From Selaginella tamariscina (lineage: Eukaryota; Streptophyta; Lycopodiopsida; Selaginellales; Selaginellaceae), in NCBI GenBank assembly GCA_003024785.1, contig PUQB01000726.1:1-64000 (forward strand): a stretch of DNA of 64,000 nucleotides. The letters are read 5' to 3'. Made by a program: the position numbers and the translations under genes. Below the pieces are notes generated by a model, which worked only from the letters and a program-made list of their open reading frames with translations, did no database searches and was not told the DNA's origin. Below, in pieces: positions 3,860 to 62,657 of the stretch. Each line of letters opens with the position of its first letter. The first letter of the stretch is position 1.

Positions 3860-4030
3860 TGTCACAACCTTTCCCTCTCCCCTTATGCCAACTAGGCAAA
3901 GGGCCATTGGTGTTTATGAGAGGACCCCTGGTCATGATGACCCAGGTCTGCTTGGGTCTTTTTGCCCACATATCCACATATCCCACAATCTTTACCCAGG
4001 TAGTCAACTCACCAGGTTAGAACTATGACA
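3860..4030 (-). repeat. TRIM left outer LTR (3' LTR)
   Basis: 171 bp, TGTCACAACC to CTATGACA on the plus strand. It is nearly identical over most of its length to 5004-5169. Recognisable words are ACTAGGCAAAGGGCC, GGTGTTTATGAGAGG and CAACTCACCAGGTTAGAA. Confidence 0.78.
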
Positions 4031-5003
4031 CTCTCCACCCATTTGAGAAAGTGGATGCCCTCATCCACAGACTTCAAGGGGTTGCTACTATGCCTTTCCC
4101 TCCCCTTATGCCAACTAGGCAAAGGGCCAATTGGTGTTTATGAGAGGGCCCTAGTCATGATGACCCAGGTCTGCTTGGGTATTTTTGCCCACATATCCCA
4201 CATATCCCACAATCTTTACCCAGGTAGTCAACTCACCAGGTTAGTCTACTTGGGTCTTTTTGCCCACATATCCCACACATCTTTACCTAGGTAAGTCAAC
4301 TCACCAGGTTAGAACTATGACCACTCTCCACCCATTTGAGAAAGTGGATGCCCTCATCCCAGACTTCAAGGGGTTGCTACTATGCCTTCCTCCAGAAGGT
4401 GCAGCCAGAGGCGTTTCTACTCATGCCCTTCCCTCTAGAAGGTGCAGCCAGAGGCGTGAGTAAAACAGAGGCGTTTCTAAGGGGTTGCTAACTATGCCTT
4501 TCCCTCTCCCCTTATGCCCACTAGGCAAAGGGCCAATTGGTGTTATGAGAGGGCCCCTATCATGATGACCCAGGTCTGCTTGGGTATTTTGCCCACATAT
4601 CCCACATATCCCACAATCTTAACCCAGGTAGTCCACTCACCAGGTTAGAACTATGACACTCTCCACCCATTTGAGAAAGTAGATGCCCTCATCCACAGAC
4701 TTCAAGGGCTCTACTATGCCTTCCTCCAGAAGGTGCAGCCAGAGGCGTTTCTACTCATGCCCTTCCTCTAGAAGGTGCATCCAGAGGCGTTTCTACTCAC
4801 GCTTAGCTCTACTTACGCTTGACTCGTAACCCAGCCCGCAAGCTGTACTCGCATCACAATGTTGGGCCAGAGGCGATCACAGAGCCGCTTGGCTGTACAC
4901 ATGTATTGAGGGGTTTAGTTAGGCAAGGTACCTTAGTGGCTTGAGCTTTACTCAAAGTTCATCCCCTGATGAGAATCAAACCTGGGACCGCTCCGATACC
5001 AAA

Positions 5004-5169
5004 TGTCACAACCTTTCCCTCTCCCTTATGCCAACTAGGCAAAGGGCAATTGGTGTTTATGAGAGGGCCCTGGTCATGATAACCCAGGTCTGCTTGAGTC
5101 TTTTGCCCAATATCCCACATATCCCCATCTTTACCCAGGTAGTCAACTCACCAGGTTAGAACTATGACA
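5004..5169 (-). repeat. TRIM right outer LTR (5' LTR) beside the PBS
   Basis: 166 bp with the same termini as the left copy. The tRNA-Met-type primer site (complement TGGTATCGGAGC) abuts it on the left, which makes this the 5' LTR of a minus-strand element. Confidence 0.78.
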
Positions 5170-11272: not shown

Positions 11273-11286
11273 TTGTCAAAGTTTTA

Positions 11287-11310
11287 TGCAAGTGTAACTA
11301 AATGGGCATG
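11287..11310 (+). repeat. Left terminal inverted repeat of the 14.4-kb element
   Basis: It pairs with 25695-25720 with two single-base gaps and one mismatch. The outermost four bases of both ends are TGCA. It is preceded by the TTTTA duplication at 11282-11286. Confidence 0.78.
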
Positions 11311-11756
11311 GCTATAGTCCCATTTCCTAATAATTAGCAATTTTAGCTATTTAATTAGCATTTTCTAATATTAAAGGAATATTCTTTAGAATATTCTATT
11401 TTGTATTCTACCCTTTAATAAATTATAGCATTCATTGAACAAAAATTAATAACATTATAAAAGTAGAAGTATTAAATTATATAATATATTGCCTAATATA
11501 ACAATTAAGGAAGAGCATAAGAGGTACATTATATAAATATTGATGTTGTTATTAAAATATTAATATTTAAATATAACATTATTAATTAAAAATTTGTAGT
11601 AGTAATATATATATATAAAATCCTATAATAATATAGTCAATCTTCCATATCATTTTTTAAATTTATATAGTTAAGTAACAATTTGGTACTATTATTAAAG
11701 AGTTTATAATAATTATGAATATTAAATATATGATATTTTATAATTTTGTAATTGCT
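11311..11756. other. AT-rich left end of the element, no gene seen
   Basis: Very AT-rich sequence with repeated GAATATTC-type words, like the right end (25500-25690). No open frame or RNA gene is recognised. It may hold subterminal transposase sites and the 3' end of the transposase-like gene. Confidence 0.5.
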
Positions 11757-14700
11757 TTAAGCTTCAGAAAACATACATTCCCTTGCAGTTTTGTTAATCG
11801 TGACTTTATCAACGCTTCTTGACATCCACCCATATCGAATGGATTTAACATTTATAAAACATGCTGGGTCTTTTTGATTGGGAGACCATGTTTTCTCTAG
11901 GCATCCATTATATCTTTCGCTCTCCTTCTCGTGTCGCCTTTTTTGTGGTTTGAACCATGCAACCTTAACAATACTATTTTTTGTGATTACTTCAGGTGTG
12001 TCGATAATTTGACCCATCCAAATAGGCTGATTATATGACGCATCTGGAGTAATGAGAACCATCATTAGTTTTTGAAGATCCTTGCAGCAATCAAAGTATG
12101 CTTTAGGTTTTTGGTTCCTTTGTCCAACAAAGTGTGGGGTTTGCACTTCCACATCACTACTGGCTTCTATGTCGTCTATGCTCAGTGATGTCATTTCAAT
12201 CTCCTCTCGCCACCTTGTTTTAGGCCAGAAAGGGTGTTGCAATTCTGTACTTGTGACAGTAGGCCCTTCCAACTCTCGAACAACAGTCTCCCAATAGTTG
12301 ACCACATGCTTATATAGTTCTGAGTAACCAGTTGCCTTATCAGAATTCTTTGGCATCGATTTTTGAACCCATGCCACATATTTTTTGATGCCATCAATAA
12401 TAACCTCTTGTTCCTTGAGCTGGGCACTCAATGGAATAGGGTCTGGTTGTCCTTCTGGGAGAAGTGGCTTTCCATCCTCTCCACTTTTGAAGAGCATTAA
12501 GCCCTCTTTCGGTAACCACTCCTGCTCTGATGGCCGTAACTTGTACTGCATAATAGGTATACCATCTCGTATGGAGAAAAAGAATTGTAGCGGCACAAGG
12601 TGACCAACTAAAGAATCACTCCCTTCTTTTATATACTCCTTGAGAAATTTTTTGAAGTCTGGCACCTCAGTCACAAGCAAAGCACAACTTTTTTTGGAGA
12701 TGCAATTTTCAAAAAGATTCATCATATGCGGTAAGGTAAGTGCACTTGTCCTTTTTGTAGAGTTGGAGACCTTGCTGAAGAACGCATCAATATCTTCATG
12801 AGTGTGACCAACCATAAGGAAACTGAGCGTGATTGTTTCAAACACACCTTTGGCAACAAGCATTGACAAGTATGCTAGCACATATCTAGAAAATAAAAGT
12901 AAGTATGAGCTTGAGAAACCCTTAAGTAAAATGATTTACCTATTTTTGTTCTCGCCTGCACAATTATCCATCTGTAAAAGCAAATGACGAGGAAGCTTAT
13001 TTGATGTTGAGGACACATGTACACTATTTGAGCTAGATCCCTCCACTGAACCTGAACTCTCAACATCCATCTTTTTTGTGCAGGCTGACAATGCCTCTCA
13101 TATTCCCAAGTAGCCTCAAGTGCAGACGTGTTCATGAGAGCATTATGTAAAGGTTGAAGGTGTTGTTTCTTCACTTTGAGATCACTGATAGGACTTGTCT
13201 GTGAGTGGGCTTCAAGGTTTCTGAAACACATGGCTAACGACCCAATAGTGAAATTGGAGTCGCTAGACCAATGTGGAAGTGAAAAGTGTCCATATGACTC
13301 ACAACCGTGTCCATGTGTTAGCACACCTGTCAATGAAATCGGAAGTTTCATGACATTTCCAAGGCACTTTGGTGTTGCAAAGAGCTTTGGAATGCTGGTC
13401 TTTGAATGATCCATCTTGTCATGGATCAAGCACAGGTACTCTGATGGGCGTGACACAGAAAGCATGCGGTGTGCATAGTACTGAGACCGGCAAGTTTGTT
13501 GTGCAATCATGTGGGCCTCCATCTTCTTTTGAATGGCAGTGATCTCCACCAAGGTTTTTGCACAAGCCTCTGCAGCCTTCAATGATGTACAAGTGTCACA
13601 CTTGAAAAGCTAGAGTGTTTTGCAATCTCCACATCCTTAAAATGAGTATTCCATATGTTGTTGAAGGTACCAGTGCAGATTGCTTGGAGCCCCATCAAAC
13701 TGAGGCACTTGTTCACATGTTCACACAGCAATTGAGTGTAGATTGAAGGCAAAACCTTGAGATTTTCCCTGACCCCTGCATTTGTGGTTCGGCATTTGTG
13801 AGGCATCCTGTCTGCATTTGCTTCCACAAAAGCCTTGAGTATCTCTATGGCTGCCATGATGTGAGAGCGGGTTTTGACCAAGCGAGTGTTCCCATGAACT
13901 GAGGTTCGCGCTCCATCTAGCCACTCATCCCTCCGACGGTAGAACGTGGTCTTTGGGATCCCGTATATACTGTACCAAGCTTTGAAGCAGATGGCCACCT
14001 TATTAAATACCATGGATGTACTCTGATAACCTGTGTCCGAGGCCATTCCATCAATACACCCAGTTAGTGCAGCATATACAAACTCATGCCTTTGCTTTTG
14101 GGTGAGCATACGAAAGACATGTCTACATTGGGTAATTTCATTCCGGTCTGCCATCTGACAACACTTCTTCTTGCAACAGTCAATCGTGGAAATGCTCGTA
14201 ACACTTTCGGAAGATGTAGGATCCATCTTTACCCTCTTGCTGAAACTTGCAGGGGAAGATCTACAACCCATGAATCGCCTTTTTCTTACAATAGGACCAA
14301 TGCAAGGAACCTCTTCAAATATGAGTTGTTCTTCCGGGTTGTTATTATTGAAATCCAACCCAGAATATGTTGAACCATCTTGCCGTCTTAATTCAGATGT
14401 TCGCCACCTCACGAGGGATCCAGGATACAATGTGCCATTAGGTGAAACCTCTGTCACAACTACACCCACGAAGTCGGACCCTAGTTTCTCTTCTGACACT
14501 GCTTCCATTGGATTTATAGCTGTGATGATGCCTCTTCCGACTTCAATCTCACGAAGAAAGAGAATCACCTCATCCATCACAGCAGGCAAGCCATCATCTG
14601 GTAAACTCGTGCTACTATTTGTTTGTGACTCTGCATATTCTTGTCAGCCTTGACTTCATCCAAATTCCACAATACAGGAGAACCCTCCTCAAATTCCATT

Positions 14701-14877
14701 CCCAGAACCTCAACATGCTTGTAAATGGTGTTCACCCATACGTACACACAAGATCCTTGGGCAATATTGTGACATGATGCATTATTATCTCGAACTTCCA
14801 CAGTTCCAGTGCCAACTATCTCGTTGTTCCGAAGAAGACATACTTTATCTCCAGTATTAAACATATTGTCCTGCACA
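11757..14877 (-). CDS. DUF7869-like protein, candidate transposase (with frameshifts and introns)
   Basis: Reads right to left. An N-terminal exon segment begins after a splice acceptor near 14873 (GTGCAG; NTGDKVCLLRNNEIVGTG). It continues through a Cys-rich CCKKKCC motif (about 14170) and SIYGIPKTTFYRRRDEW (about 13960). Next come CDTCTSLKAAEA (about 13590), EYLCLIHDKMDHSKTSIP (about 13430), LTHGHGCESYGHF and DSNFTIGSL. After these, LLLQMDNCAGENKNR is spliced to YVLAYLSMLVA across a 54-nt GT-AG intron (12886-12939). GHTHEDIDAFFSKVS follows at about 12815-12770 and the stop is at 11757. This order matches proteins classed as DUF7869. The conserved Asp/His residues suggest an RNase-H-like nuclease, hence my transposase inference. 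Frame changes near 14640, 13620 and 13085 mean decay or base-calling errors. The true 5' exon was not found. Confidence 0.72.
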
Positions 14878-15019
14878 TAAATAATTGTATTATTTATGAT
14901 ATCTGTTTATGCAATATTTCTAAGAAATCTGAATTACGGTTACTTAATAATATGCATATGCAATAATACATAATTATGTTTAGAGATAATATCTCATGTT
15001 TGATTAATACAATTGATGG

Positions 15020-15540
15020 GGCGGGATTAATCCCGCCCACGAATCCCTCCGACGAGGAACGGTCGGCGGGATTAATCCCGCCGCCGACTCAACCCCTTCG
15101 GAGAGAGTCGGCGGGATTAATCCCGCCCACAATTCTTACGGGGAATGGGTGGCGGGATTAAACCCGCACATAACTCTCTCCAAAACTATGATTTCAAAGA
15201 GATCTCGGGATAAATCCTGTCCCCAAATCCTTAAAACAGGGAGTGGTGGCGAGATTAATCCCGCCACCCCTTCCCTGCCTCCTAAAATGGTTGGCGGGAT
15301 TAATCCCGCCGACAACTCTTTCTAATAAATTCTGGTAACTCTTCATCAGTTGAGAAGGTTATCGGCGGGATTAATCCCGCCACTCTTTTTCAGTGGCGGA
15401 GAAGCATTGCCCGAGAGATGGTGGCGGGATTAATCCCGCCACCTCTTCGAAGAGGCGAAAAAGAAATGGCCGGATTAATCCCGCCCCCGGTTAACCTAGA
15501 ATATTAAGTTAAAAGGATATTTAAACGGGATAAATCCCTA
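15020..15540. repeat. Palindrome array 1 (GGCGGGATTAATCCCGCC)
   Basis: Exact 18-bp palindromes start at 15020, 15065, 15110, 15293, 15364 and 15423. Degenerate copies lie near 15152, 15204, 15247, 15470 and 15525. The first copies are spaced 45 bp apart. The array begins about 140 bp upstream of the first recognised exon of the minus-strand gene, so it lies in its promoter or 5' region. The spacers differ from each other. The GC-rich arms stand out against the AT-rich surroundings. Confidence 0.9.
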
Positions 15541-16110
15541 ACGGAATATATTATAATCCTAATGCATTCCTAAACCCCTAAATTGTAATTTTAAGAGAGA
15601 ATGTAAGAGAGTGAATCTTTATAAGTATTTTTAAATTTGTTTATAATACTTACTTGTAAACAGCACTGAAGGCGCCGTGCTTTCCTATAAAGAATAGCAC
15701 CCAATTTAATCTCGCTCCTGAGATGATCACTATGAAGAAAAAAGAAGATCTAAAGAGTGAAAAATACAGAAATGAAGAAACCCTTGCCGGAGAAAGAACC
15801 AGATCTGAATTTGAGTGGGAAATTAAATGCATTTTCAAATTTACATGTCAGACCGACAATACATATGTCAGAAATTCAAATTTTTTAAAAAGAACAGAAA
15901 ATAAAAGATGAGTTGACACAAATATCCGACACTCTGACATATATACTCTCCAGTTCCAATGAGTATTTTAAAATTGCATTTAATGTTATTCAAGTGATTC
16001 AAGCTGTTTAATATTACGAAATTTTAGACTATATTCTACATTCTTAGTATTCAAGTATATTTATATTATATATATATAATATATACTTATACAAAAATAA
16101 ATTGATATAT
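15541..16110. other. AT-rich spacer after array 1, no gene assigned
   Basis: No convincing coding sequence. A short frame at 15723-15911 has no recognisable family. A possible upstream exon of the minus-strand gene could lie here but cannot be identified by eye. Confidence 0.4.
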
Positions 16111-16850
16111 TATTATGTATCATTTAAAATATATTCATAGTCTGTTTATTATTATTATTTTCTTAATTACTCGAGTATTTAGTTTTCATTTCCTAGTATC
16201 AATGGGATATTCTTTATTATTTTATTAATATTTGAAGAATATTCTAATATTAAACCTGATTATCATAATTAAATTAGTCTTGTTCTTAATTATTGCAGTA
16301 ATTATTCTACATTTGTATATATTAATGGGATTTTCTCAATTAATTTGTTATTATTTCAAGAATATTCTGTGTTAAACCTTATTATCAATATTAAATTAAT
16401 ATATATTATTAAAACTATATATGACTTATATTAGATAAAATGATGTATTATTATGTATAATTTAAATATGTTCATAGTGTGTATATTAATATCATTTCCT
16501 TAATTACTTGAGTAATTAATCTTCTTTATATTAATGGGATATTCTTTATTATTTTCTTATTATTCCAAGAATATTCCAATATTAAACATGATTATGATAA
16601 TTAATTTAGTTAATTATTTGAGTACTTAATTTACATTTGTATATATTAATGGGATTTTCTCAATTAATTTCTTATTATTTCAAGAATATTTCAATGTTAA
16701 ACCTTTTTATCAATATTAAATTAATATATATTATTAAAACTATATATGGCTATATATTAGATAAAATCATATATTATTATGTATAATTTAAAATATGTTC
16801 ATAGTGTGTTTTAATATTATTTTCTTAATTATTCGATGTTTGTTTTGCAC
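16111..16850. repeat. Tandem AT-rich repeat, unit about 0.3 kb, 2.3 copies
   Basis: Segments starting near 16111, 16448 and 16760 share long words in the same order: TTATGTATxATTTAAA-ATAT, TTCATAGT, TAATGGGATATTCTTTATT, AAGAATATTC, and a second TAATGGGATTTTCTCAATTA block. It is non-coding and lies inside the 14.4-kb element. Confidence 0.7.
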
Positions 16851-17068
16851 ACATATATAAACACAATCATAAATTTACACACGCATTACAAGAACTTACA
16901 AAAACACATATGCACACACATGCACAACCCTAAACCAAACTGAAGAAATATGTTGCTTCTTTATTGAAAACATCATGTTCAACGCATGTATGATATATGT
17001 ACTCAATCTGTGTGTATGTAACACATTGAATTTACATGTGTAATATTTATATTAAGCTTGTTGGGAGC

Positions 17069-17178
17069 AAACCCTAAACCCTAAACCCTAAACCTGTGTA
17101 TACATGTGTGTACAAAAATAATTTTTCAACACTCTCTCTTCACACCATGCATGATCCATCCTAAACCCTAAACCCTAA
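17069..17178. repeat. Interstitial telomere-type CCCTAAA runs
   Basis: At 17069-17094 the sequence is a run of three and a half CCCTAAA units, the Arabidopsis-type telomere repeat. At 17161-17178 there are two more units, and a third short run is near 17601-17621. They lie in the spacer of the 14.4-kb element, so they are not a chromosome end. Confidence 0.75.
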
Positions 17179-17960
17179 TATGTAACACAATGAATTTACT
17201 CATGTAATATGTATGTATGTCTGTGTGTATACACGTGTGTATGTATATATGTGTACTCTGTATGTATATATGTGTACTTTCTGTCTTCTCTCATACATAC
17301 ACACCATGCATGATCCATGTTAATATGTACTGTCTCTCTTCTCTCAAACATACACACCATGCATGATCTATAATATGTACTCGGTCTCTCTAATATGTAC
17401 TAATATGTATGTATGTCTGTGTGTATAATACACACCATGCATGATCCATAATATGTACTTCTCTCTTCTCTCATATACTATGTATGTATATCTGTGTATA
17501 ATATGTGTAAGTATATATGTGTACTAATATATGCAATGTGTACAAAAATAATTTTTCAACACTCTCTTCTCTCATACATACACACCATGCATGATCCATC
17601 CTAAATCCAAAACCCTAAACCCTATAATATGTATGTATGTCTGTGTGTATACACGTGTGTATGTATATATTATGTGTATTAATATATGCAATGTGTATGT
17701 ATGTATTGATACACATGAAACTTTAACACTCTCATGGACACACACATGTTAAATCCCTGCATGATTTATATTTTTGGGGTGTATGTGATACACCCACACA
17801 CGCACGCGCTAATAATATAATGAAAGAATATTCGTTTAGGGCGAATCTATATTTTATTCTTTTTAGGGTTTAAGTATATTCTCAGAAGGAATATTCTATT
17901 AGGGTTAATATATATATTTAATTCCTTTAGGGTTTAGGTATATTCTTAGGGTTTCAAGAG
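17137..17960. repeat. Dispersed ACACCATGCATGATCCAT repeat with TATG/TGTA simple sequence
   Basis: The word CACACCATGCATGATC recurs at about 17142, 17300, 17356, 17429 and 17581, separated by CTCTCTTCTCTCATAC and TGTGTATGTATATATGTGTA tracts. No coding region is seen. The 17820-17960 stretch is AT-rich with repeated TTTAGGGTTTA. Confidence 0.65.
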
Positions 17961-17994
17961 GCGGCGGCTGTGAAATCGGCGGCGGCGGCTGTGC

Positions 17995-18008
17995 ACACAG
18001 GTGAGATC

Positions 18009-18039
<31 letters not shown>

Positions 18040-18715
18040 ATATGTATAGGAGTGTGCGTATAATTTATTTATTGATCTATCTCTCGCACACAACGCACAC
18101 TCCTGTGTGTATATATATGTGTGTGTGGGTGTGTGTTGTTTATCTGTATGATTTTATTTGTTTCGCTCACACACGCATACACACGATATACATATACATA
18201 TATATATATACCTATATACATATACATACATATATTATGTGTACCAGTATCTATTAAATTTTTTTATTGATCTATCTCTCCCACACACACGCACATTGCT
18301 TTACATATATATATATATATATTATAATCAATGCATATTAACAAATAGTATACAACACTAGTTTATATAATGCTTATATATTCACAGACTCTCTCTCTTT
18401 CTCTATGGGTTATATTTATATACACACATATATATGTGTGTGTGTGTGTGTTTATCTGTATGATTTATTTGTTTCGCTAACACGCATACACACGATATAC
18501 ATATACACATATATACCTATGTACACACATATATTATGTGTACCAGTACTGTATAATTTTATTTATTTATCTATCTCTTGCACACACACGTACACTCCAT
18601 AATACATACATACATATAATATAATATATATATATATACACACATATATATATGTGTGTGTTTTTATCTGTATAATTTTTTTATTTATTAATTTTATCTC
18701 TCGCACACACACTAA
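17995..18715. repeat. Microsatellite tract (TG/CA/TA)n, repeated three times
   Basis: Three related blocks (about 18005-18300, 18400-18595 and 18640-18715) each carry (TG)n, ATCTGTATGATTTxATTTGTTTCGC, (CA)n and (TA)n. They follow the GC-rich GGCGGCGGCTGTG words at 17960-17995. Apparent open frames here are simple-sequence artefacts. Confidence 0.8.
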
Positions 18716-18726
18716 GCCCCTCGAGC

Positions 18727-20420
18727 GGCGGGATTAATCCCGCCGCTATAGGTTTATGGCCTCGGCGGCGGGATTAACCCGCTGTTATATGGTTGGGGCT
18801 ATGGCGGTGGGATTAATCCCGCTGCCGAGGCCCTTCACGCAGGCTAATGGGGGCGGGATTAATCCCGCCACTCTAGGACAAACCGAAGAGTGGCGGATTA
18901 ATCCCGCCGCCCATGGCCTGCGTGAGGGGCCTCGGCGGCGGGATTAATCCCACCGCCCACCCATGCCCTGCGCGGAATGCGGCGGATTTATCTCGCCGAC
19001 AATGGCCTGTGTGAAGGCCTTAATGGGCGGGATTAATCCCGACGGATTCCGCGCAAGGCATTTACAGGGGATGGGCGGCGGGATTAATCCCGCCGCTCAT
19101 GAGACTAACCGAAGAGCCTGCATGAAAGATCCTGCACGGAAGGCTAACCGAAGAGCCTTGCATGACATGTCCTGCGCGTAAGGCGGCGGGATTAATCCGC
19201 CGCCCAGGGAATTCACGCAGGACATGAACGGCGGGTTAATCCCGCCCCACGCTCATGCCCTTCCGCAGGATATAAGCGGCGGATTAATCCCGTCCCCACC
19301 CATCCTGTTCAAAATGCCGCAGCCGTGTGAGCGCATGATTTACGAGAGGGCGGCGGGATTAATCTCTCCGAACCTTCATTGCCCGGTGGCGGGATTAATC
19401 CCGCCACCCTTCTTTTTTTCCTCCATTGGTATGTTGAATCAATCCCGACTAACTCTGTTTGAGACGGAGAAGGTTTAAAAAATACCAATGGAGGGAACTG
19501 AGAAGGGTGGTGGGATTAATTTCACCATCCCTTACATGGTGGGCGGGATTAATCCCGCCGCCTTTTCGAGCCCCTGAAGGGGTGTGAAAAATAAATCCTG
19601 CCCAATTCTCTCTGAGAATGAGAAAGGTGGCGTCCAGCGGGATTAATCCCACCGCCTACGGCCGAAGTGAAGGGCCTGGGCGGCGAAATTAATCCCGCCG
19701 CCACACGCATGCCCTGCGCGGAATCGGGCGGGATTTATCCCGCCGCCATTGGCCTGCCTGAAGGGCCTAGGCGGCGGGATTAATCCCGCAAGATTTCGCA
19801 CAGGGCATTGGCGTTCGGCGGGATTAATCCCGCCGACTAAGGCCCGAGTGAAGGGCCTGGGAGGCGGGATTAATCCCGCCGCGTACGCATGCCCTGCGGA
19901 ATCGGGCGGGATTTATCCCGCCGCCATTGGCCTGCCTGAAGTGCCTAGGCGGCGGGATTAATCCCGCCCGATTCCGCGCAGGGAATTGGCGTCCGGCGGG
20001 ATTAATCCCGCCGCATAGGGACCGAGTGAAGGCCCTGGGCGGCGGGATTAATCCCGCCGAGTCTTCAATGCCTGTTGGAGGAATGAATCCCGCCACCCTT
20101 CTTTTTTCTCCATTGGTGAGTCGGACCAATCCTAAACGTTTCTGTCTGAGACGTAGAAGGTTTACAACATACCAATGGAGAGAATTGGGAAGGGTGGGGA
20201 AATTCATTTAACCATCCCTTACATGGTGGGCGAGATTAATCCCGCCTCCTTTCTGGAGTCACTGAAGGGGTGTGAGAAATAAATCCTGCCCAGTTCTCTC
20301 TGAGACCGAGAAGGGTGGCAAGATTAATTCCGCACTCCCGTTCAAGGCCTCCAGAAAGGTGGCGAGATTAATCCCGCCCACTCTTTCAGGAGGCATTGAA
20401 GGGGTGGCGAGATTAATCCC
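18727..20420. repeat. Palindrome array 2 (GGCGGGATTAATCCCGCC), upstream of the plus-strand gene
   Basis: Exact copies start at 18727, 18852, 19077, 19388, 19542, 19817, 19863, 19951, 19995 and 20041. Some 20 degenerate copies lie between them (single-base changes such as GATTTATC or GCGAGATT, and missing arm bases). In 19817-20058 the spacing is 44-46 bp. Spacers carry a second, weaker palindromic consensus of the GGCCTGCxTGAAGGGCC type. The array ends about 350 bp before the ATG of the ParB/MTase-like gene. Confidence 0.9.
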
Positions 20421-20537
20421 GCCGCACCTTCCATGTGAATATATATGTGTATTAGTATATATAAGTTGCATATCTCATTTTATTTACTTTTATCATCTTA
20501 TCATAATATTTCGAGTAAAAGCTAGGAATCTATGTAA

Positions 20538-20624
20538 AACTGTCCAGAGCTCACATTTGTGGTGGTTCTAAAACGAAATGTTATCTTTCTTTTGCACTAG
20601 CACAAATGTGAGCTTCGGACAGTT
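20538..20624. repeat. Hairpin-forming inverted repeat upstream of the ParB/MTase-like gene
   Basis: Arm 20538-20561 (AACTGTCC..AGCTCACATTTGTG) pairs with 20601-20624 (CACAAATGTGAGCT..GGACAGTT) at 22 of 24 positions, with a 39-nt loop. It lies about 140 bp before the ATG at 20767, in the promoter or 5' leader. It could be a cruciform or protein site, or a precursor-like RNA hairpin. No known RNA family is recognised. Confidence 0.75.
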
Positions 20625-20766
20625 AATTACGTCTACTTCTCTCTGTGTATTATTTTTGTATATTCGGGTTTATACAAGTGTGTGTGCGTTTTTATATGAT
20701 TTGTATTCATAGTGTATTATTTTGCAGAAGGACGATTTGATCAAACAAGGAGATCGAGTCATTAGT

Positions 20767-23700
20767 ATGGAGTCGTCGTCAAATTCTGGGTAAGAATTAA
20801 AATAAAATCTGTTATACTCGGATACTTGAACTAATCATTTTTGTATTCAGATGTGGAATTAAGGTGACATTAAAGACAAGAGCAGGAGAAGAGATGGGCA
20901 GGGGGATTCTGGAATCAACTTGGCCATATTTTAAGATAAATGGGAAGCGCATTGGAGCAACCATGGTTGCTGTCAAATTAACCTCTGTCACATCTCATGG
21001 ACAAGCAAAACAATGGAAAGTAGATTCGCTAGTCAAGCACCCGAAAGCAGGCTGCGAACCCAGATTGGACGATTCTCGACAGATATGCCTTGTTCCATCC
21101 AATGTCACGTTCTCGGATCCAGAGGTCGTCAGTTACAACATTAATTTCGGGTGGTTTTGTCGACTTGTGGATAATGACGTTCACGTGTTCACTAATGATG
21201 TTGACCTTGGAGTTCTTCTTCAACTCAACGAAAGCCCATCTATGGAGGGGATCCATCTGGATGTCTACTTCGAAGATCTTCAGACTCATCGAGTAGGTGT
21301 ATTGTCAGGAGATATTGCTTCACAATACAGAAAATCAGCAAGTGGAGCAATCTTCCCTCTTCACATTGAAGAAGAACACAGCGACATCATAAGGAGATTG
21401 AGAGGGTGGCTCGGTCTCAGGTTCTCTACAGATCACGTTCAATTTGCTTAGGAAGCTTCGGGAGCTGGAAGAGTGTGCCGAGAACACTAGAACAGCTGCA
21501 GTCGGGGATCACACATGTTGATTCGGATCGCAAAAGAAAATCATCAATCGTTTTGTCAGCTGCACCTGTGGCATCTCATGCTGCAATAAGTCACAAGGAA
21601 ATGATGTTGGATGAAAGATTTATCCTTGTAGGGTTAAATATTGCAGCGTCAACCCAAACTTCAATTACAGGCCACTCAACCAGGAACGTGTAGCTGAGCT
21701 CATGGAGAAGATGAAGGACGACAATTCTTATACCGTTCCACATAATGCTGTTTTGTGTCCATACTATGAAAGAAGGAAGGGCGCTGACAAAGTCTGGATC
21801 ACAACACCAGAACAACTCATGAAGATTCAGACGGAGAATAAAAATCTATCAAGTACTACATCATTAGTGGCCAGCACACAATAACGGCAGCCCAACGACT
21901 TCTCGATGAACACAACAAAGGAACGATGGCAACAAAACTTTCCGAGCATACCCGTGAGAAGCTGACAAAAAGATCGGCGTTTTTAGCTAAGCCGAATCTC
22001 ACAATCGAGCAGTACCATAAGTTATCGGCGGAATGGGACGCTGCCGACACCAACCACTACAACAGCAAAATATGGGAGAAGTTTAAACACACGCGAGCCG
22101 TGTGGGAATCTCTTCAGCGACCACAAAGAGCTACCGCAGGGAATACACAATCTGCGGAATACCGGGTAAGCAAATTGTTGGGCGGGATTTATCTCGCCGG
22201 TATATTAATCTGTCTTTTTCCTCAGAGAGTTGAAGAAATTGCAGCAGTTGATTTTGCCCAGGTGGGCGGGAAGGAAACATCCTTTCTGATGATGTTGATT
22301 TCTTGCCCCGAAGATAGGATCTTTGCCAAATGGTTGGGGATTATGGAATCCTTTTCAAAAGGAACACTGAAGAAGAAGCAGACAAGTGAAGGGGAGCCCT
22401 CAGAAAAGTCTGCAAAAAACCCAGTAAGACGCCGAAGGCTAAGTCTGTTCAATCTACAAAGGATGTAGACAACGATTTCAAGCTCACATGGTTGAAGCCT
22501 TTAAATGGAACAACGATGGAGGAGATGGAAGTCTTGGCTGATTTGGTGATCGATGGCAAACTACAAATTAATAACAGCAGCCCAACCTCTCCTTTTCATC
22601 TCAAGGCAATGGAGTTGAAGACGGTCAGGCATTTCAAGGAGTGGTTGGGAATACACTGCCACAAACTGGGTTGGACCTCGACTTCAACATATGAAGAGGT
22701 CAGCAAATATTTGCATGTGACGAACGATGATATGCTTGTCGAATGGGTGAACCAATCGGAAGATCTAGGCAAGAATCTATTGCACGCCAACGCCAAAAAG
22801 GAGAACATTGGGATGACGCCTTCTCTTATGGCAGTCCTTCAGCAGCGGAGAACCGAATTGAACCTTATAAAGGAGGATGCTACGAATCACGACAAGCCCT
22901 ACAGATGTTTGTTGTTTAGATTCGGAGACTTTATGGGGTAACATCACTGCTTGTAGGAAACCGTTTCAATTGTTCGTGATGGATCGGCGGGTGTCAAAAA
23001 ATCTTTCGACAGATAGGGCACTAGAGGATCTGGTGGAGAAACTTAGCCGTGCAAGCATATACATAGAAGGTATTTATTATTGAATTCATGCTTGCGCTCT
23101 TCACTGATACCTACTTTTTCAGGTATTTATTTCTTGATTCTTGCTCATGTCACCGATACTTTTGCCTTCGCCTTCGCCAAGAAGAATAGACATCGTTGGA
23201 CAGGATTTTATATGAACGATGCTAATCCCAAGTGCATTGATACCGTTGTTCACTTGGTTGTTAGGAATGCGCCAAACAATTTCAAGCTTCCAAATGACTG
23301 GCCAGGCATCTGTTTGCACTCCAACGGCCCTGAACCTCCATCCGATACACCGATAGGTGAGTGACGTATTCGGCAATGTACGTTATCCAAACATTACAAG
23401 TCAAGCGGCACGGAGCATCGTCAACTTGATTAGGGGTCCTCACAGTGATGCATGGGTTTTTGACTACTGCACTAGGGGGTCCGTCTTGAAGGAGTGTTAC
23501 CTTCGGCATACATGTGTGTTTGCCGTTGAAAAGGATAAGACCATGGTTGAGGACCTGAACAAGTGGATAGATAGGTTCTCAACTGAGTACCCCAACGAAT
23601 CCATAAAGGCGTATTTGAGAAAGTTCCCTCCAGATAAGTGCGATAGCTCTGAAGTGAATCTGGTTCAATGTCGGAGTCTGAGAACGAACTTCAATCAGAT

Positions 23701-23871
23701 ATTAGACCGGAAGTTATCTCGAGGAGTACAGAACATTCGCACACTCCAGGACCCATGGAAACATCAATAGAAGATGCAGAAGATCTTGAACCATCTCACA
23801 AGCGGCTTAGACCTTCTTCGCCTCACTCAGAAGGTAATAGCGAAGAAGAATTGTTAATGAATTGTGAGTGA
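20767..23871 (+). CDS. ParB-like plus DNA-methyltransferase-like protein (frameshifted, with introns)
   Basis: Start at ATG 20767. Exon 1 (MESSSNSG) ends at 20789 and a GT-AG intron leads to 20851. The N-terminal domain (to about 21440) is unassigned. NPNFNYRPLNQERVAELM (about 21650-21710) and YYIISGQHTITAAQRLL (about 21860-21900) look like the ParB N-terminal fold. An intron at 22166-22225 itself contains a palindrome copy. After a basic linker, 22480-23070 is helical. An intron ends at 23122, followed by a segment with RHRWTGFYMND. At about 23450-23540, DAWVFDYCTRGSVL then CVFAVEKD resembles the SAM-binding motif of beta-class N4/N6 DNA methyltransferases (motif I after the catalytic part). 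A clear DPPY is not seen: VMDRRVSKN sits about where it would be. The acidic tail has KRLRP and a stop at 23869. Frames change near 21440, 21850 and elsewhere. Prokaryotic ParB-MTase fusions are the family analogy. Confidence 0.5.
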
Positions 23872-24129
23872 TGAATAGTTGTAAATGAGTGTAACATAAG
23901 GCATTTTTGTATATTTCTTTTATATTTGTACAGAAAATAAATTCTCAAGGATTAATGAAGCTTTTAGTTCAAACATGGGTCACACATTAACAAGGTAAAT
24001 AATATACCTTGATAATTTTAAGGTCAGCTAATTATCATTTTGCAGATGTAATGAAACAGTTGAGAACACTAAATCTATTGTATCAAACTATAAAACTTTT
24101 AAGGAACTTGTTTTTTTTAGGGATATATA
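23872..24129. other. AT-rich spacer, nothing recognised
   Basis: 3' flank of the ParB/MTase-like gene with AT-rich sequence. No gene or RNA is seen. Confidence 0.4.
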
Positions 24130-24139
24130 TCTAAATTTA

Positions 24140-24215
24140 TGTGCAGGACAATATGTATAATACTGGGATAAAGTATGTCTTCTTCGGAATAACGAGATAG
24201 TTGGCACTAGAACAT
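24140..24215 (+). pseudogene. Inverted partial copy of the transposase-like gene's 5' exon
   Basis: The plus strand here (GTGCAGGACAATATG, AATACTGG, AAAGTATGTCTTCTTCGG, ACGAGATAGTTGGCACT) matches the complement of 14812-14886, including the splice-acceptor bases. It is a short duplicate of the DUF7869-like gene's exon in opposite orientation near the other end of the element. It is interrupted and not translatable beyond about 25 codons. Confidence 0.7.
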
Positions 24216-24465
24216 GGATTTCAGCATTGGCATGAGGTAAGAGAGGGTTTGGCGACAATTTCTTGTGCCACATGTCAGAATGACAGATTTCATGCAGGAA
24301 ATGGATAATAATGCAGCTCAAAACATCGTTACCATGGGGGCCACTTCATCATCATTTTTATTCCGAAATCAATTTCTTCAGCGCATGCAATATCTGAATC
24401 TTATAAGGATGATGTACAATTAAATGATGAAGGGATAGGCAACGAGATAGTGGCAACGGATAAAT

Positions 24466-25432
24466 GTGAAAGGGAGCAAAACAAGTGATTTGCAAAGTAT
24501 TCAAGAGGCAACGCTATCTCATGTTACTCATGGCCATATTGTGTTGTTGGATGTCAATGGTGTTCTGCTTCATCGACAAAGGCCCGAGGATAGGAAAAAA
24601 GAAATCAAACAAGGAGATTTCATTCCTTGTCATGGTAAATTTCGATATGATATTATTTTTCGTCCAGGGTTGGATCGTCTCTTTCAAAAGCTTAAGGAGA
24701 TGAGTGCGCTTGTGGGGATTTGGTCATGCATGCAGATTCATAACTTAACACCGCTGTTGAATTTACTTAAGAAACATTGTAGTGTTGTAGAAGAGGTGAT
24801 TCGTAAAGATTGGATTTTTGACCAGCGAATATGTTATAAACTCTCGAATTTCACAATATAAGAAAGGAAAGCAAGCCGTACTTCTTCAAGAATGAAAGAA
24901 TAATTGGGACTCACGGGAAGATCAGTCGCTTAAGGATAATGAAGAACGCACAGATGTTAGTAGTAGACGACTCTCTCAGAAGGCTATGCTCAACCAAAAC
25001 ATTGCTTGTATTCATCCAATCACTTTCGATCCATATTCTGATACCGATCATGGATGAGCTAGTGAACTACTTGGATACGTGCCTCAGAAAGAAGAATCTC
25101 AAAAATTTTATGAACAATATCCACCGTATCATACATTTCCTGAAGCTTTTCTTTCTCGTGATATTGAATTTTATAAAATGAAGGATAGCAACCGAGCGCT
25201 TTATAATATTATTCTTAAGGAACGTCAGTTTTTAGATGAGCCTTTATGCAGACCTTCTCTTATCACATCTTATGTATTAACAAGGATGGCAACTCCCAAT
25301 TGCATTCGTGAGAGTGTTAAGTGGTGGCAACAACATCAAGATATTGACCAAAATGATTTGATTAATCCGGAGAGTGATGATTTAGACAAAATAAGAAGAT
25401 TTCTTTGTATGATAGAAAGAAAGTATTTATAA
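24466..25432 (+). pseudogene. FCP1/NIF-type HAD phosphatase-like passenger, broken
   Basis: The first frame (24466-24861) reads HIVLLDVNGVLLHR, a HAD motif I in the DVNG form seen in some plant FCP1-like proteins. It goes on to FRPGLDRLFQKLKEMSALVGIWS and LTPLLNLLKKH, the order of the FCP1/SCP homology domain. MLVVDDSLRR (about 24950) fits HAD motif IV. The C-terminal part continues at 25079-25432 (VPQKEESQKFYEQYPPYHTF) to a stop at 25432. Frame changes near 24860 and 24970 and a TGA at about 25047 break it. It looks like a captured host gene inside the transposon. It may once have been expressed, and the function is unknown. Confidence 0.5.
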
Positions 25433-25694
25433 AAAAATTAACATGTTGATAAGAAAATGATTTCATTTGTAATTATGTTTGATAGTATTTCTTCATTATT
25501 GTAAACTATTTTTAGAATAATATGAATATTCTAAGATATTTTAGGAATATTCCTTACTAAGTAAGGTTATTGAAGGATTAATTAATTAATTAATTAATAT
25601 TTAAGGCTTAATTACATATTAATTAAATGATTAATTAATAATTAAAACTTAAGTATTAATTAGTAATTTATTTTATATTCCCATTTTCACGTAT
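25433..25694. other. AT-rich right end of the element
   Basis: Holds a run of TTAA/ATTAATTAATTA at about 25575-25600 and GAATATTC words mirrored at the left end. No gene is seen. Confidence 0.5.
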
Positions 25695-25720
25695 CATGCC
25701 CACTTTAGTTACAACGTGCA
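25695..25720 (-). repeat. Right terminal inverted repeat of the 14.4-kb element
   Basis: The complement begins TGCACGTTGTAACTAAAG and pairs with 11287-11310. It is followed by the TTTTA duplication at 25721-25725. Confidence 0.78.
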
Positions 25721-26662
25721 TTTTACCTGGTGCCACAAAGGTGGCTCGCCAGGTGCCAACCCTAGAATCCACTCTTTGGAAACCCCATGGAATCTAGTAA
25801 AGTAACCCGTATTAGGAACCCAACCCTTAGGAACTTAAGCCCCTAGCTAACCAAGTCCACAAACGAGGCTCACCTTGTGAATTAGGACACGCAGACTAGC
25901 CGAGCTATAGGTACCGTTCCTAGCTTGGCGTGGTTGAGGCAACAAGAGCAAGGTCTCAATCATTAGTTCTGCAAAACGTGAACTTGGGCAATGCCTTTTG
26001 AGCTTGCGAGTAGGTTTTTGGGCCAAGGAATTTGACTAACTCCTTGGAAGTAACGTACCCCTATCACAAAGGCAAAATCCTGTCAATGATAAGGATAGTT
26101 TAACCCAAAGGTGGGACGTACCCCTGTCGTGTAAAAGTTTGGGCGGCACAACAAAGGGTTGCGCCTTGACGACACAAGCTTAACTTGCACTGATAGGAGG
26201 TTAACAAACTCTCTTTTGAACCCAGGAAGCCTCACTACATATACTGTACCTTAATTATGTGATGGAGCCCCCCACCCTGTTTTCTAAATGAGTAAGTGGG
26301 CTGGCACGAAAATGCTAGTCCTTAATGAAAATGAGTTATCCTAACCTAACTCTAAACCTAACCCCTAGGGGGTTAGGGGCAACCCTAAGGTTAGGTTAAC
26401 AACCCTTTTTTGACAAGCTATACTTTTAACGGAAAACCTACTTTTGGAACGTCAAACCAGGGGAGAGTTTTCTAAAAGGTAAGTACTACCTTCGCCTAGA
26501 GTTTCTTGAGGTACCTAGTGACAACCAGCCAGATTACCCCTAAACACCTAAGTGCACTAAGCGGGGCTATTTCTCACTATAACTATGTTTCATCACACAT
26601 CTCAATAGGTACAACAATCAAACCCCAAAGTAAAGGGTTGAGTCATAGTAAAAACTATGACA
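25721..26662 (-). repeat. Remainder of the B1 copy 1 5' LTR
   Basis: Continues the LTR cut at 11286. It matches 42577-43537 closely (GGTGCCACAAAGGTGGCTCG, CTAGCTAACCAAGTCCA, TGACAAGCTATACTTTTAACG). It ends CTATGACA at 26662, followed by the AGGTC duplication. No coding sequence. Confidence 0.87.
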
Positions 26663-41250: not shown

Positions 41251-42239
41251 ACTCAGTCCCCTCGTATCATTCATGTCAAATATAAAGGGTCAATTTTGTC
41301 TTAAATAGCAAATAAGGCAGGTTGTTTTGACACAACATTACCTCTTTTAACTCATCTTCCGGATCTTTAAGCGTTTCTGGTTCAGCAACTTCCTCTTCTA
41401 CCATAGCCTTGAAATGACCCAATTGTTATGAGGGTGCTCGACATTGTCGAGCGACATGACCAGGTTTGTTACAATTATATCATGTTGGAACCTCACATGT
41501 GGATTGCAAGGGAGCAGACTTTGGAGCTGAGCTTGCCTTGCCTGCTGAGGTGTGGTAATGCTAACGGTTTCCGAGATCCAATGGGTCTTGATGTATCTAA
41601 AAACTTAGAACTACCGACAAAGGGACTTGCACTTCAATTCAATGGTGACTGATTTGGTCGTCTATCAAACCTTTTGAACCCAGACTTTGGAGGAAAACTC
41701 CTTGGTTTAGGTTTTGCTTCCTCCCCTTTGTACAAGTCTTCTAACGACATTCCATAAGCAATCTTTTGAGCTGCCTCTTGACATTCCCGATAGCTTGTTG
41801 GATTGTACCTTAAGATTTCCTTTTGTGTCTTCTCATTCAAGCTAGCCATGAAGTAACTTCGAGCTTCATCATCACTCATATTTAGCACCAATCGCTGTAC
41901 ACTTTCGAATCGATAAACGTGGTCCATTGGACTTTTCTGAACTCCCTGTTGACAAACCTGACTCTGAGTCATGCTTCTTCTTTTTTTTCCGTGTATTTAG
42001 TTGCAGAACATCTGGCACTGCAGTATTCGTCGAAATCCGAACAACAACATTATCGATTCGGTCGTTCAACCCAAAACTTCCCCTTGAAGTTCGTTTAGGG
42101 CATCCATCATTATTTCTCACCAACTAGGTCGTTGTTTAACTCTAAAGGGTCGACCTAGATCAGCCTCATCCATCTCCTCATTTTGGGCCTCTACGACAGC
42201 CCTCTCTGCCTCAGGCTCTAGTTGCTTTCTTTTACTCAT
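41251..42239 (-). pseudogene. B1 copy 2 gag
   Basis: Start complementary to 42237-42239 (MSKRKQLEPEAERAVVEAQ). The gag core is seen at 41972-41640, with MDHVYRFESVQRLVLNMSDD and ARSYFMASLNEKTQKEIL followed by YNPTSYRECQEAAQKIAYG, then MSLEDLYKGEEAKPKPRS. CCHC-like CNKPGHVARQC lies at about 41470-41435. A deletion at about 41950 joins the acidic stretch to the core (loss relative to copy 1 at 10350-10660). Confidence 0.78.
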
Positions 42240-42554
42240 TGTATTGAACCCTAGTTTCAACACTCGGAGAATATGCTTGGAATATTCCCAATATGAAGTT
42301 GGAAACAGCCTGCACATGTTGTACACCCACACACATCGGCTTGAACTAGCATAAGACTTTCGGACATACCTAGAATCTCACGCCGACTCACTGAGCAAGT
42401 GTTCCCCGAAGTTTGATAATTCACAGGATCAAACTCTCTACACAGAATACAGACATGTCAACCGAAAGCGATAGAGTAGATCAGGAATTTAGAGTTATCT
42501 AAACACTAAAACACCTTATGACTTAAGGCAGTCCTACTGACCACAGAGAACTTG

Positions 42555-42567
42555 CTCCGATACCAAC
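42555..42567 (-). other. Primer binding site of B1 copy 2
   Basis: Complement GTTGGTATCGGAG(C), tRNA-Met type, immediately inside the 5' LTR. Confidence 0.8.
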
Positions 42568-43537
42568 TGTCAGAGTTTTTACTTGGTGCCACAAAGGTGG
42601 CTCGTCAGGTGCCAACCCTAGAATCCACTCTCTGGAAACCCCATGGAATCTAGTAAAGTAACCCGTATTAGGAACCCAACCCTTAGGAACTTAAGCCCCT
42701 AGCTAACCAAGTCCATGAACGAGGCTCACCTTGTGAATTAGGACACGGAAACTAGCCGAGTTATAGGTATCGTTCCTAGCTTGGCGTGGTTGAGGCAACC
42801 GGAGCAAGGTCTCAATCACTAGTTCTGCAAAACGTGAACTCGGGCAATGCCTTTTGAGCTTGCAAGTAGGTTTTTAGGCCAAGGAATTTGACTAACTCCT
42901 TGGAAGTAACGTACCCCTATCACAAAGGCAAAATCCTGTCAATGATAAGGATAGTTTAACCCAAAGGTGGGACGTACCCCTGTCGTGTAAAAGTTTGGGC
43001 GGCACAACAAAGGGTTGCGCCTTGATGACACAAGCTTAGCTTGCACTAATAGGAGGTTAACAAACTCTCTTTTGAACCCAGGAAGCGTCACACATATACT
43101 ATACCTTAATTATGTGATGGAGCCCCCCACCCTATTTTCCTAAATGAGTAAGTGGGCTGGCACAAAAATGCTAGTCCTTAATGAAAATGAGTTGTCCTAA
43201 CCTAACTCTAAACCTAACCCCTAGGGGCGTGGGGTTAGGGCAACCCTAGGGTTAGGTCAACGCTAGGGTGTCCCTAACCCTTTTTTGACAAGCTATACTT
43301 TTAACGGAAAACCTACTTTCGGAACGTCAAACCAGGGGAGAGTTTTCTAAAAGGTAAGTACTACCTTCGCTTAGAGTTTCTCGAGGTACCTAGTGACAGC
43401 CAACCGGACTACCCCTAAACACTTAAGTGCACTAAACAGGGCTGTTTCTCACTATAACTATGTTTCGTCACACATCTCAATAAGTACAATAGTCAAACCC
43501 CAAAGTAAAGGGTTGAGTCATAGTAAAAACTATGACA
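42568..43537 (-). repeat. 5' LTR of B1 copy 2
   Basis: 970 bp. It includes the uninterrupted counterpart of the 14.4-kb element's target (CAGAGTTTTTACTTGG at 42571-42586). It contains internal CCTAACCCTA-like words near 43195-43270. Confidence 0.86.
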
Positions 43538-60451: not shown

Positions 60452-61083
60452 ATCATTTCTTGACAAATAGAGTATTACTGTAAATTCATAAAAGATTTAT
60501 CAAAGATAGTAGCACCGTTGACAAATCTCACGAAGAACATTTCATAACATTGAACTTTAGAGTACCAACGGGCATTCGTTAAACTCAAAGAAGCTATTTC
60601 TGCTAAGCCAAATTTGCAATTGCCAATTTTTGAAGATCCATTTGAAATAGAGTGTGACGCTTTGACTTTGCAATTGGTGGTGTATTGTAGCAGAAAGAAC
60701 ATTCAATGTCCTTTTTCTTAAAGAAAGTTAAATGTTGCACAAATTCAATAGCTTACTCACAAAAGAAGTATATGCTATTGTTTCTTCTTTGAAGTATTGG
60801 CGTAATTATCTTCCAAGTCAAGACAATGAGGTTTGGACCAATAATGTAACTTTGAGATACTTTAAAATGCAGTTGAAGCTATTACTGAAGTATGCTAGAT
60901 GGCAGCAGAAGTTAGCTTGATTTCAGCCTGAAATCAAATATAAATTTGGAAAAGACAATGTGGTAACTGACACACTTAGTAAAAGGGACATCTTCATATT
61001 ATGTCAGTACAAGTGTAAACTTTAGTAAATGAATTTGTGATGGCATATCCTCATGATGAGTTTGCTAAGGAGGCCTTAGACTT
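60452..61083 (+). pseudogene. Gypsy B2 pol relic, inverted copy
   Basis: Plus-strand copy of 43538-44170. RNase H-like words VYAIVSSLKYWRNYLPS and VWTNNVTLRYFK are open at 60744-60870. Ends GACTT (61079-61083), the complement of AAGTC at 43538. Confidence 0.8.
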
Positions 61084-62047
61084 TGTCATAGTTTTTACTA
61101 TGACTCAACCCTTTACTTTGGGGTTTGACTGTTGTACTTATTGAGATGTGTGACGAAACCTAGTTATAGTGAGAAAAGCCCGTTTAGTGCACTTAAGTGT
61201 TTAGGGGTAGTCCGGTTGGCTGTCACTAGGTACCTCGAGAAACTCTAAGCGAAGGTAGTACTTACCTTTTAGAAAACTCTCCCCTAGTTTGACGTTCCAA
61301 AAGTAGGTTTTCCGTTAAAAGTATAGCTTGTCAAAAAAGGGTTAGGGACACCCCTAGCATTGACCTAACCCTAGGGTTGCCCTAACCCCACGCCCCTAGG
61401 GGTTAGGTTTAGAGTTAGGTTAGGACAACTCATTTTCATTAAGGACTGGCATTTTTGTGCTAGCCCACTTACTCATTTAGGAAAACAGGGTGGGGGCTCC
61501 ATCACATAATTAAGGTACAGTATATGTAGTGAGGCTTCCTGGGTTCAAAAGAGTTTGTTAACCTCCTATCAGTGCAAGCTAAGCTTGTGTCATCAAGGCG
61601 CAACCCTTTGTTGTGCCGCCCAAACTTTTACACGACAGGGGTACGTCCCACCTTTGGGTTAAACTATCCTTATCATTGACAGGATTTTGCCTTTGTGATA
61701 GGGGTACGTTACTTCCAAGGAGTTAGTCAAATTCCTTGGCCTAAAAACCTACTCGCAAGCTCAAAAGGCATTGCCCAAGTTCACGTTTTGCAGAACTAGT
61801 GATTGAGACCTTGCTCCGGTTGCCTCAACCACGCCAAGCTAGGAACGATACCTATAGCTCGGCTAGTCTGCGTGTCCTAATTCACAAGGTGAGCCTCGTT
61901 TGTGGACTTGGTTAGCTAGGGGCTTAAGTTCCTAAGGGTTGGGTTCCTAATACGGGTTACTTTACTAGATTCCATGGGGTTTCAGAGAGTGGATTCTAGG
62001 GTTGGCACCTACGAGCCGCCTTTGTGGCACCAGGTAAAACTCTGACA
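61084..62047 (+). repeat. 5' LTR of B1 copy 3
   Basis: 964 bp, TGTCATAG...CTCTGACA. It includes CCCTAACCCCACGCCCCTAG near 61380. Complement of 42568-43537 with scattered changes. Confidence 0.86.
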
Positions 62048-62048
62048 G

Positions 62049-62061
62049 TTGGTATCGGAGC
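62049..62061 (+). other. Primer binding site of B1 copy 3
   Basis: TTGGTATCGGAGC directly after the LTR end and one spacer base. tRNA-Met type. Confidence 0.82.
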
Positions 62062-62375
62062 AAGTTCTCTGTGGTCAGTAAGACTGCCTTAAGTCATAGG
62101 GTGTTTTAGTGTTTAGATAACTCTAAATTCCTGATCTACTCTATCGCTTTCGGTTGACATGTCTGTATTCTGCGTAGAGAGTTTGATCCTGTGAATTATC
62201 AAACTTCGGGGAACACTTGCTCAGTGAGTCGGCGTGAGATTCTAGGTATGTCCGAAAGTCTTATGCTAGTTCAAGCCGATGTGTGTGGGTGTACAACATG
62301 TGCAAGCTGTTTCCAACTTCATATTGGGAATATTCCAAGCATATTCTCCGAGTGTTGAAACTAGGGTTCAATACA

Positions 62376-62657
62376 ATGAGTAAAAGAAAGCAACTAGAGC
62401 CTTAGGCAGAGAGGGCTGTCGTAGAGGCTCAAAAGAGGAGATGGATGAGGCTGATCTAGGTCGACCCTTTAGAGTTAAACAACGACCTAGTTGGTGAGAA
62501 ATAATGATGGATGCCCTAAACGAACTTCAAGGGGAAGTTTTGGGGTTGAACGACCGAATCGATAATGTTATTGTTCGGATTTCGACGAATACTGCAGTGC
62601 CAGATGTTCTGCAACTAAATACATGGAAAAAAAAGAAGAAGCATGACTCAGAGTCAA
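62376..62657 (+). pseudogene. B1 copy 3 gag N-terminus, deleted after 62657
   Basis: MSKRKQLEP then a stop (CAG? to TAG at 62402), then in another frame MMDALNELQGEVLGLNDRI and KKKKHDSES. After GACTCAGAGTCA (62645-62656) the sequence jumps to protease. Confidence 0.75.

Follow-up and report, generated by a model that had tools for sequence, protein, structure and literature searches.

A 64-kb stretch of the Selaginella tamariscina genome (the window, to which all coordinates refer) contains at 11286..25721 a 14,436-bp transposon with the termini ATGCA...TGCAT. This element belongs to a young, recently amplified, multi-copy family of transposons with terminal inverted repeats (TIRs). We consider it likely that the family is of the DDE/D type and that its transposase is a protein with the Pfam domain DUF7869 (gene A), and we propose that arrays of an 18-bp palindrome control gene A together with a second, orphan gene (gene B).

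The left TIR (11286..11310, + strand) reads ATGCAAGTTGTAACTAAAATGGGCATG in other copies, the window version being two bases short, and the right TIR (25695..25721, − strand) is 27 bp long. Within the window the repeats are imperfect over about 24 bp. An earlier note on this DNA had described imperfect TIRs of 24-26 bp starting with TGCA; the repeats themselves stand, but their start has to be corrected to ATGCA...TGCAT at 11286-25721. In the full-length copy Y604, the TIRs are identical at 25 of 27 positions. The TIR score was reached by one in 20,000 random 30-mers of the window, a draw that may be the partner end itself. The insertion target is a long terminal repeat (LTR): the joined flanks align end to end with the uninterrupted sister LTR that had already been noticed (41955-43269, 93%), and each flank also matches a second, inverted sister LTR (approximately 60452-62656) at 93% and to the same point.

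Searching the genome (300.7 Mb, 1,391 contigs) for the exact 27-bp right terminus returned 1,081 occurrences (536 + 545), while the reversed control returned 0. A query with the left 314 bp gave 487 candidates, of which 40 copies were scored, the window among them; the match starts at query base 1 in 31 of these, and in all 20 retrieved right ends the sequences diverge directly after TGCAT. Fixed ends shared by many copies, together with the insertion into an LTR, bear out the earlier note's assignment to TIR transposons. The copies at C855, C3, C612 and C604 were read and measure 14.1-14.9 kb; C811 is nested or rearranged, the copy following a 2-kb fragment of another copy (L022-L023). The family also inserts into itself, as one copy sits in gene A of another (L032/L054). 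With the right 320 bp as query, all 40 scored copies (1,156 candidates) were identical over the 320 bp, whereas, among left ends, the other 39 that were scored show 4-11% difference from the window. This contrast may stem from a recent burst, from conversion or from assembly indels affecting the left end.

The target-site duplication (TSD) of the family is 4 bp long. T follows TGCA in 20/20 retrieved right ends and A precedes most left ends. Taking the ends as ATGCA...TGCAT, an exact 4-bp duplication was found in 8 of 15 end pairs compared to 0 of 210 cross-pairs; in one of the eight (L038), the terminal A is missing from the sequence and was filled in by hand. The 5-bp duplication TTTTA proposed earlier, which goes with TGCA ends, was rejected, since only one of the 15 pairs, namely the window itself, shows it. 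Duplications of 6 bp were seen in 1/15 pairs with ATGCA ends and in 2/15 with TGCA ends. In the seven pairs that lack a 4-bp match (the window, Y604, C855, C811, L035, L039 and L042), rearrangement, mutation or misassembly may have occurred. Excluded from the 15 pairs were, among 18 left-end slices, eight without a left end and L055, which is cut at the slice edge, as well as eight of 11 copies with no complete right end in the retrieved stretch (C638, C1237, C902, C1367, C815, C1082, C402 and C925). C1237 does contain a diverged right-end-like match whose flanks, compared by eye, lack a 4-bp duplication, and counting it would give 8/16. Two empty sites were also compared. The target of L032 is gene A of another copy, where the uninterrupted sequence has the 4 bp once, and the same pattern is seen for L048 in a retrotransposon, apart from a single base difference.

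Taken alone, the window argues against a 4-bp duplication in several respects. Its left duplication reads TTTT (11282..11285, the length being taken from other copies), and the right one reads TTTA (25722..25725) where TTTT is expected. Moreover, the gap to the sister LTR amounts to two bases under the 4-bp reading and to one base under the 5-bp reading, and the sister LTR by itself slightly favours the latter. It is plausible that one T was lost from the T-run on the right side, because this assembly has frequent base deletions.

Gene A (11757..14864, − strand) contains one 54-bp GT-AG intron (12886-12939), and its frame is broken in at least three places. Profile searches confirmed the DUF7869-like protein recognised in the earlier note, with an E value of 1e-26 for the window gene and 9.1e-47 for the intact copy L071. 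This open copy is 99.3% identical to the window gene over 3,213 bp. Relative to L071, the window has 0 inserted and 12 deleted bases, and deletions outnumber insertions in most other copies as well (14 copies), which suggests assembly errors; such errors would disrupt gene models of this genome. Forty-one of 44 scored genome matches (6,811 candidates) span residues 2 to 1021/1022 of P0003, a relative of gene A, in one frame interrupted by a single TAA. L071 is the sole copy of that kind that was retrieved, and its TAA falls in the 54-bp intron. The ratio of non-synonymous to synonymous changes (pN/pS) against L071 lies between 0.18 and 0.44 in 13 of 14 copies, the remaining one being Y604 (0.81 on 8 changes), and 3/14 copies carry in-frame stops. 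Judged by these ratios, gene A is under purifying selection.

A database of 5.8 billion proteins yielded 16 distinct DUF7869 relatives. Fifteen of them are encoded on uninformatively named contigs of 2.3-6.0 kb; the remaining one comes from the clam Mya arenaria. Scans of bacterial, archaeal and viral sequences with one pattern (17 stretches) and with two patterns (45 stretches) confirmed no relative, their reach being confined to relatives that hold the patterns. The structure model of P0003 is of low confidence (pLDDT 61). It places a strand at 503-511 with D509, strands at 537-544 and 551-555, a helix at 563-578, a strand at 648-654 with D654, a helix at 661-674, a strand at 680-686 and finally the motif GHTHEDID, with E693, D694 and D696 at a helix spanning 693-708. 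The first acid motif is found in 15/16 relatives (P0007 reads IIDGMDQ instead), the second in 13/16 and GHTHEDID in 12, the other misses being proteins that end before the motif.

As set out in PMC5718144, DDE/D transposases of the retroviral-integrase-like class show the RNase-H order of strands and helices, with acidic residues on the first and fourth strands and at the last helix, and the low-confidence P0003 model has the same strand order and acid placing. Structural matches of the model include the integrases of mouse mammary tumour virus (MMTV), visna virus and foamy virus over approximately 484-728 and Mos1, TnsB and IstA over longer stretches. Gene A differs from the solved enzymes of this group in that its core piece had no sequence match among solved structures and the Foldseek search of the P0003 model no match at E 0.001. 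A viral fold library, whose reach is confined to families on the VIA list, likewise gave no match at E 0.001. Because of the conserved acids, the RNase-H strand order of the low-confidence model, the integrase, Mos1, TnsB and IstA matches, the purifying selection and the position between TIRs in the copies read, the DUF7869 protein is a probable transposase, in agreement with the original proposal. A transposase function is thereby suggested for a Pfam domain of unknown function that has dozens of open copies in this genome.

The palindrome arrays, like gene C described below, were not part of the earlier note. With up to four mismatches, the 18-bp palindrome GGCGGGATTAATCCCGCC has 39 sites in the window, all inside the element. 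Array 1 (15020..15485) comprises nine sites and begins some 156 bp upstream of the start codon of gene A, array 2 (18727..20423) comprises 29 sites, the last of which starts some 360 bp upstream of the start codon of gene B, and a single palindrome with two mismatches (22181..22198) lies in the second intron of gene B. These distances are nearly constant in the copies read: of 14 copies examined, 13 hold array 1, and in all 13 its beginning is 151-156 bp away from the gene A start codon; for array 2, the distance between the start of the last site and the gene B start codon is 353-392 bp in all 10 copies in which this codon was found (precision about 3 bp). C402 has neither a palindrome site nor a gene B start. 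The commonest spacing is 44-46 bp. Across 359 sites, linker columns hold 0.0-0.5 bits compared to 1.4-2.0 bits for palindrome columns, a difference that stems partly from the choice of sites; the linkers are near random and the palindrome is kept. Genome-wide, the 300-Mb assembly contains 27,128 exact palindromes, the reversed control 0. As a side observation, the CpG observed/expected ratio of the arrays (15001-15500 and 18701-20450) is 0.98 and 1.07, or 0.75 and 0.80 with the palindromes removed; the corresponding values are 0.41 for gene A, 0.76 for gene B and 0.55 for the flanking DNA.

Gene B (20767..23871, + strand) has four exons (20767-20789, 20851-22165, 22226-23069 and 23123-23871), and its frame is broken in the window. 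The 976-residue protein was assembled from the copies Y612 and Y604, of which Y612 has one frame break in the last exon. Pooled pN/pS values of the three large exons, calculated without these two copies, are 0.45, 0.18 and 0.46, which points to selection on gene B; the second exon of the window gives 1.40 on 12 changes, and in-frame stops occur in C1367, C1082 and C3. No relative was found at E 1e-3 among 7,996 scored candidates with a query that carried the frame breaks of the window. The protein could be assigned to no known family: Pfam returned no more than two unrelated rows, both below the cut-off (E 0.035 and 0.21). A profile comparison of the N-terminal parts of genes A and B gave one weak, position-consistent match (probability 1.2, E 0.044), too weak for us to claim a common domain.

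We propose that the DUF7869 protein, as an RNase-H-fold enzyme, probably cuts at the ATGCA/TGCAT ends and that the cut ends would be joined to the target at positions staggered by 4 bp, from which the 4-bp duplications would result in a cut-and-paste process. The N-terminal part of gene A, with predicted SH3/Tudor-like barrels, helical segments and CxxC, probably binds the ends or chromatin. The divergently oriented genes A and B each have an upstream array of one palindrome about every 45 bp. The arrays may serve as promoter elements, bound by a protein encoded by the element, most likely that of gene B, which would control or de-silence both genes. If so, the family would represent a self-regulation or anti-silencing system in a plant.

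Different functions for these components were also considered. The earlier note regarded gene B as a ParB/methyltransferase-like protein and hence the element as carrier of its own DNA-modification gene. The short stretch SGQHTITAAQ resembles the ParB/Srx motif, and residues 358-417 have one sub-threshold PHROG match (E 0.051) to a family of unknown function, but no ParB or methyltransferase family was matched in Pfam, NCBIfam, PDB sequences, phage genomes or the protein database; the DNA-modification gene is therefore unsupported, and a ParB-like enzyme appears improbable. The palindromes could also be binding sites of a host factor used by the element rather than of gene B, in which case the family would have dispersed host binding sites in large numbers. 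This would fit the fixed distances of the arrays from both genes and the half site GGCGGGA, which is similar to an E2F site. However, the full palindrome lies outside the E2F consensus TTTSSCGC and occurs in the window only inside the element, and we regard a host factor as possible, though unlikely. Finally, DUF7869 could be a passenger or host gene, with gene B or an element elsewhere moving the copies. Gene B is conserved too, yet it has no recognised domain or relative at the threshold given above compared to 16 for DUF7869, which is itself multi-copy and has a relative whose model shows a transposase-like strand order. We therefore consider a passenger role very unlikely and retain DUF7869 as the probable transposase.

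With regard to classification, fixed-end TIRs in many copies and a TSD of constant length are those of DDE/D-type TIR transposons, and we file the element there. Sola DNA transposons, attributed to Bao et al. 2009, reportedly have 4-bp TSDs and a DDD transposase and are said to occur in bacteria, protists, plants and animals. The element might belong to a named Repbase superfamily, most likely Sola, with DUF7869 as its Pfam name, and the novelty would then reside in the other genes and the arrays. The 4-bp TSD, the three conserved acidic positions and the clam relative agree with this assignment; the one-pattern scan of bacterial and archaeal genomes without a relative is weak evidence against it, and Sola is not known to have ATGCA ends, palindrome arrays or genes B and C. 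We hold membership in such a named superfamily to be a substantial possibility, if short of probable. More tentatively, and with considerable doubt, we suggest that DUF7869 defines an undescribed eukaryotic transposon superfamily with ATGCA ends and 4-bp duplications, and that in the plant lineage studied here a DNA-binding gene B protein would read arrays of the palindrome, which has reached 27,128 exact copies, to switch on or de-silence both genes. In the literature searched, which does not show absence from print, the name DUF7869 does not occur and no description was recognised as this element.

Other groups share individual traits with the element. Like the VANDAL/MULE elements of Arabidopsis, which encode VANC anti-silencing proteins, it is a large plant element with TIRs that combines a transposase with additional conserved genes and with short motifs repeated in non-coding DNA; VANDAL elements, however, have duplications of about 9 bp, and Pfam lists no MULE domain for gene A. 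CACTA elements are large as well and have internal repeated binding motifs (TNPA sites), and 2/16 relatives showed a weak Transposase_23 match below the cut-off. The array layout resembles both systems by analogy, and no common proteins were found. According to PMC12730594, CACTA/EnSpm (CMCT) elements have CA..TG ends and their transposases carry CxxC and H(3-4)H between the second D and the last acid. The present element has ATGCA rather than CAC ends and a TSD of 4 instead of 3 bp, and inspection by eye of P0003 between D654 and E693 revealed no CxxC and no HxxxH of the CACTA type, so that CACTA/EnSpm was discarded. IS3EU/GingerRoot elements are also of the DDE/D type, and GingerRoot was described from a Selaginella; their 6-bp TSD and mostly TA..TA ends (PMC10045372, PMC12730594) differ from the 4-bp TSD and ATGCA..TGCAT ends found here, and this assignment was likewise dropped. 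No hAT, MULE, PIF/Harbinger or piggyBac transposase domain was listed in Pfam scans of gene A and its 16 relatives. In its gene content, as the earlier note had stated for CACTA, and in its termini the element is unlike both CACTA and IS3EU.

Gene C (24451..25432, + strand), whose start is not fixed and whose frame is broken in the window, encodes an FCP/NIF-phosphatase-like protein with the motif DVNGVL. Against PF03031 it scored 41.2 bits with the pieces joined (cut-off 21.8) and 32.1 bits in a single window frame. The catalytic motif of NIF/FCP phosphatases is DxDx(T/V), from which the DVNGV of gene C departs. Pooled pN/pS values of 0.30 and 0.55 indicate selection on this gene, which may be accessory and possibly of host origin. 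Upstream of gene C, 47 bp of the gene A start (14803-14849) recur in inverted orientation at 24167..24213 (96% alike), an internal duplication of the element. Outside the transposon, an LTR element contains a block of direct repeats at 3860-5169, with repeats of roughly 150-240 bp that are 89-95% identical.

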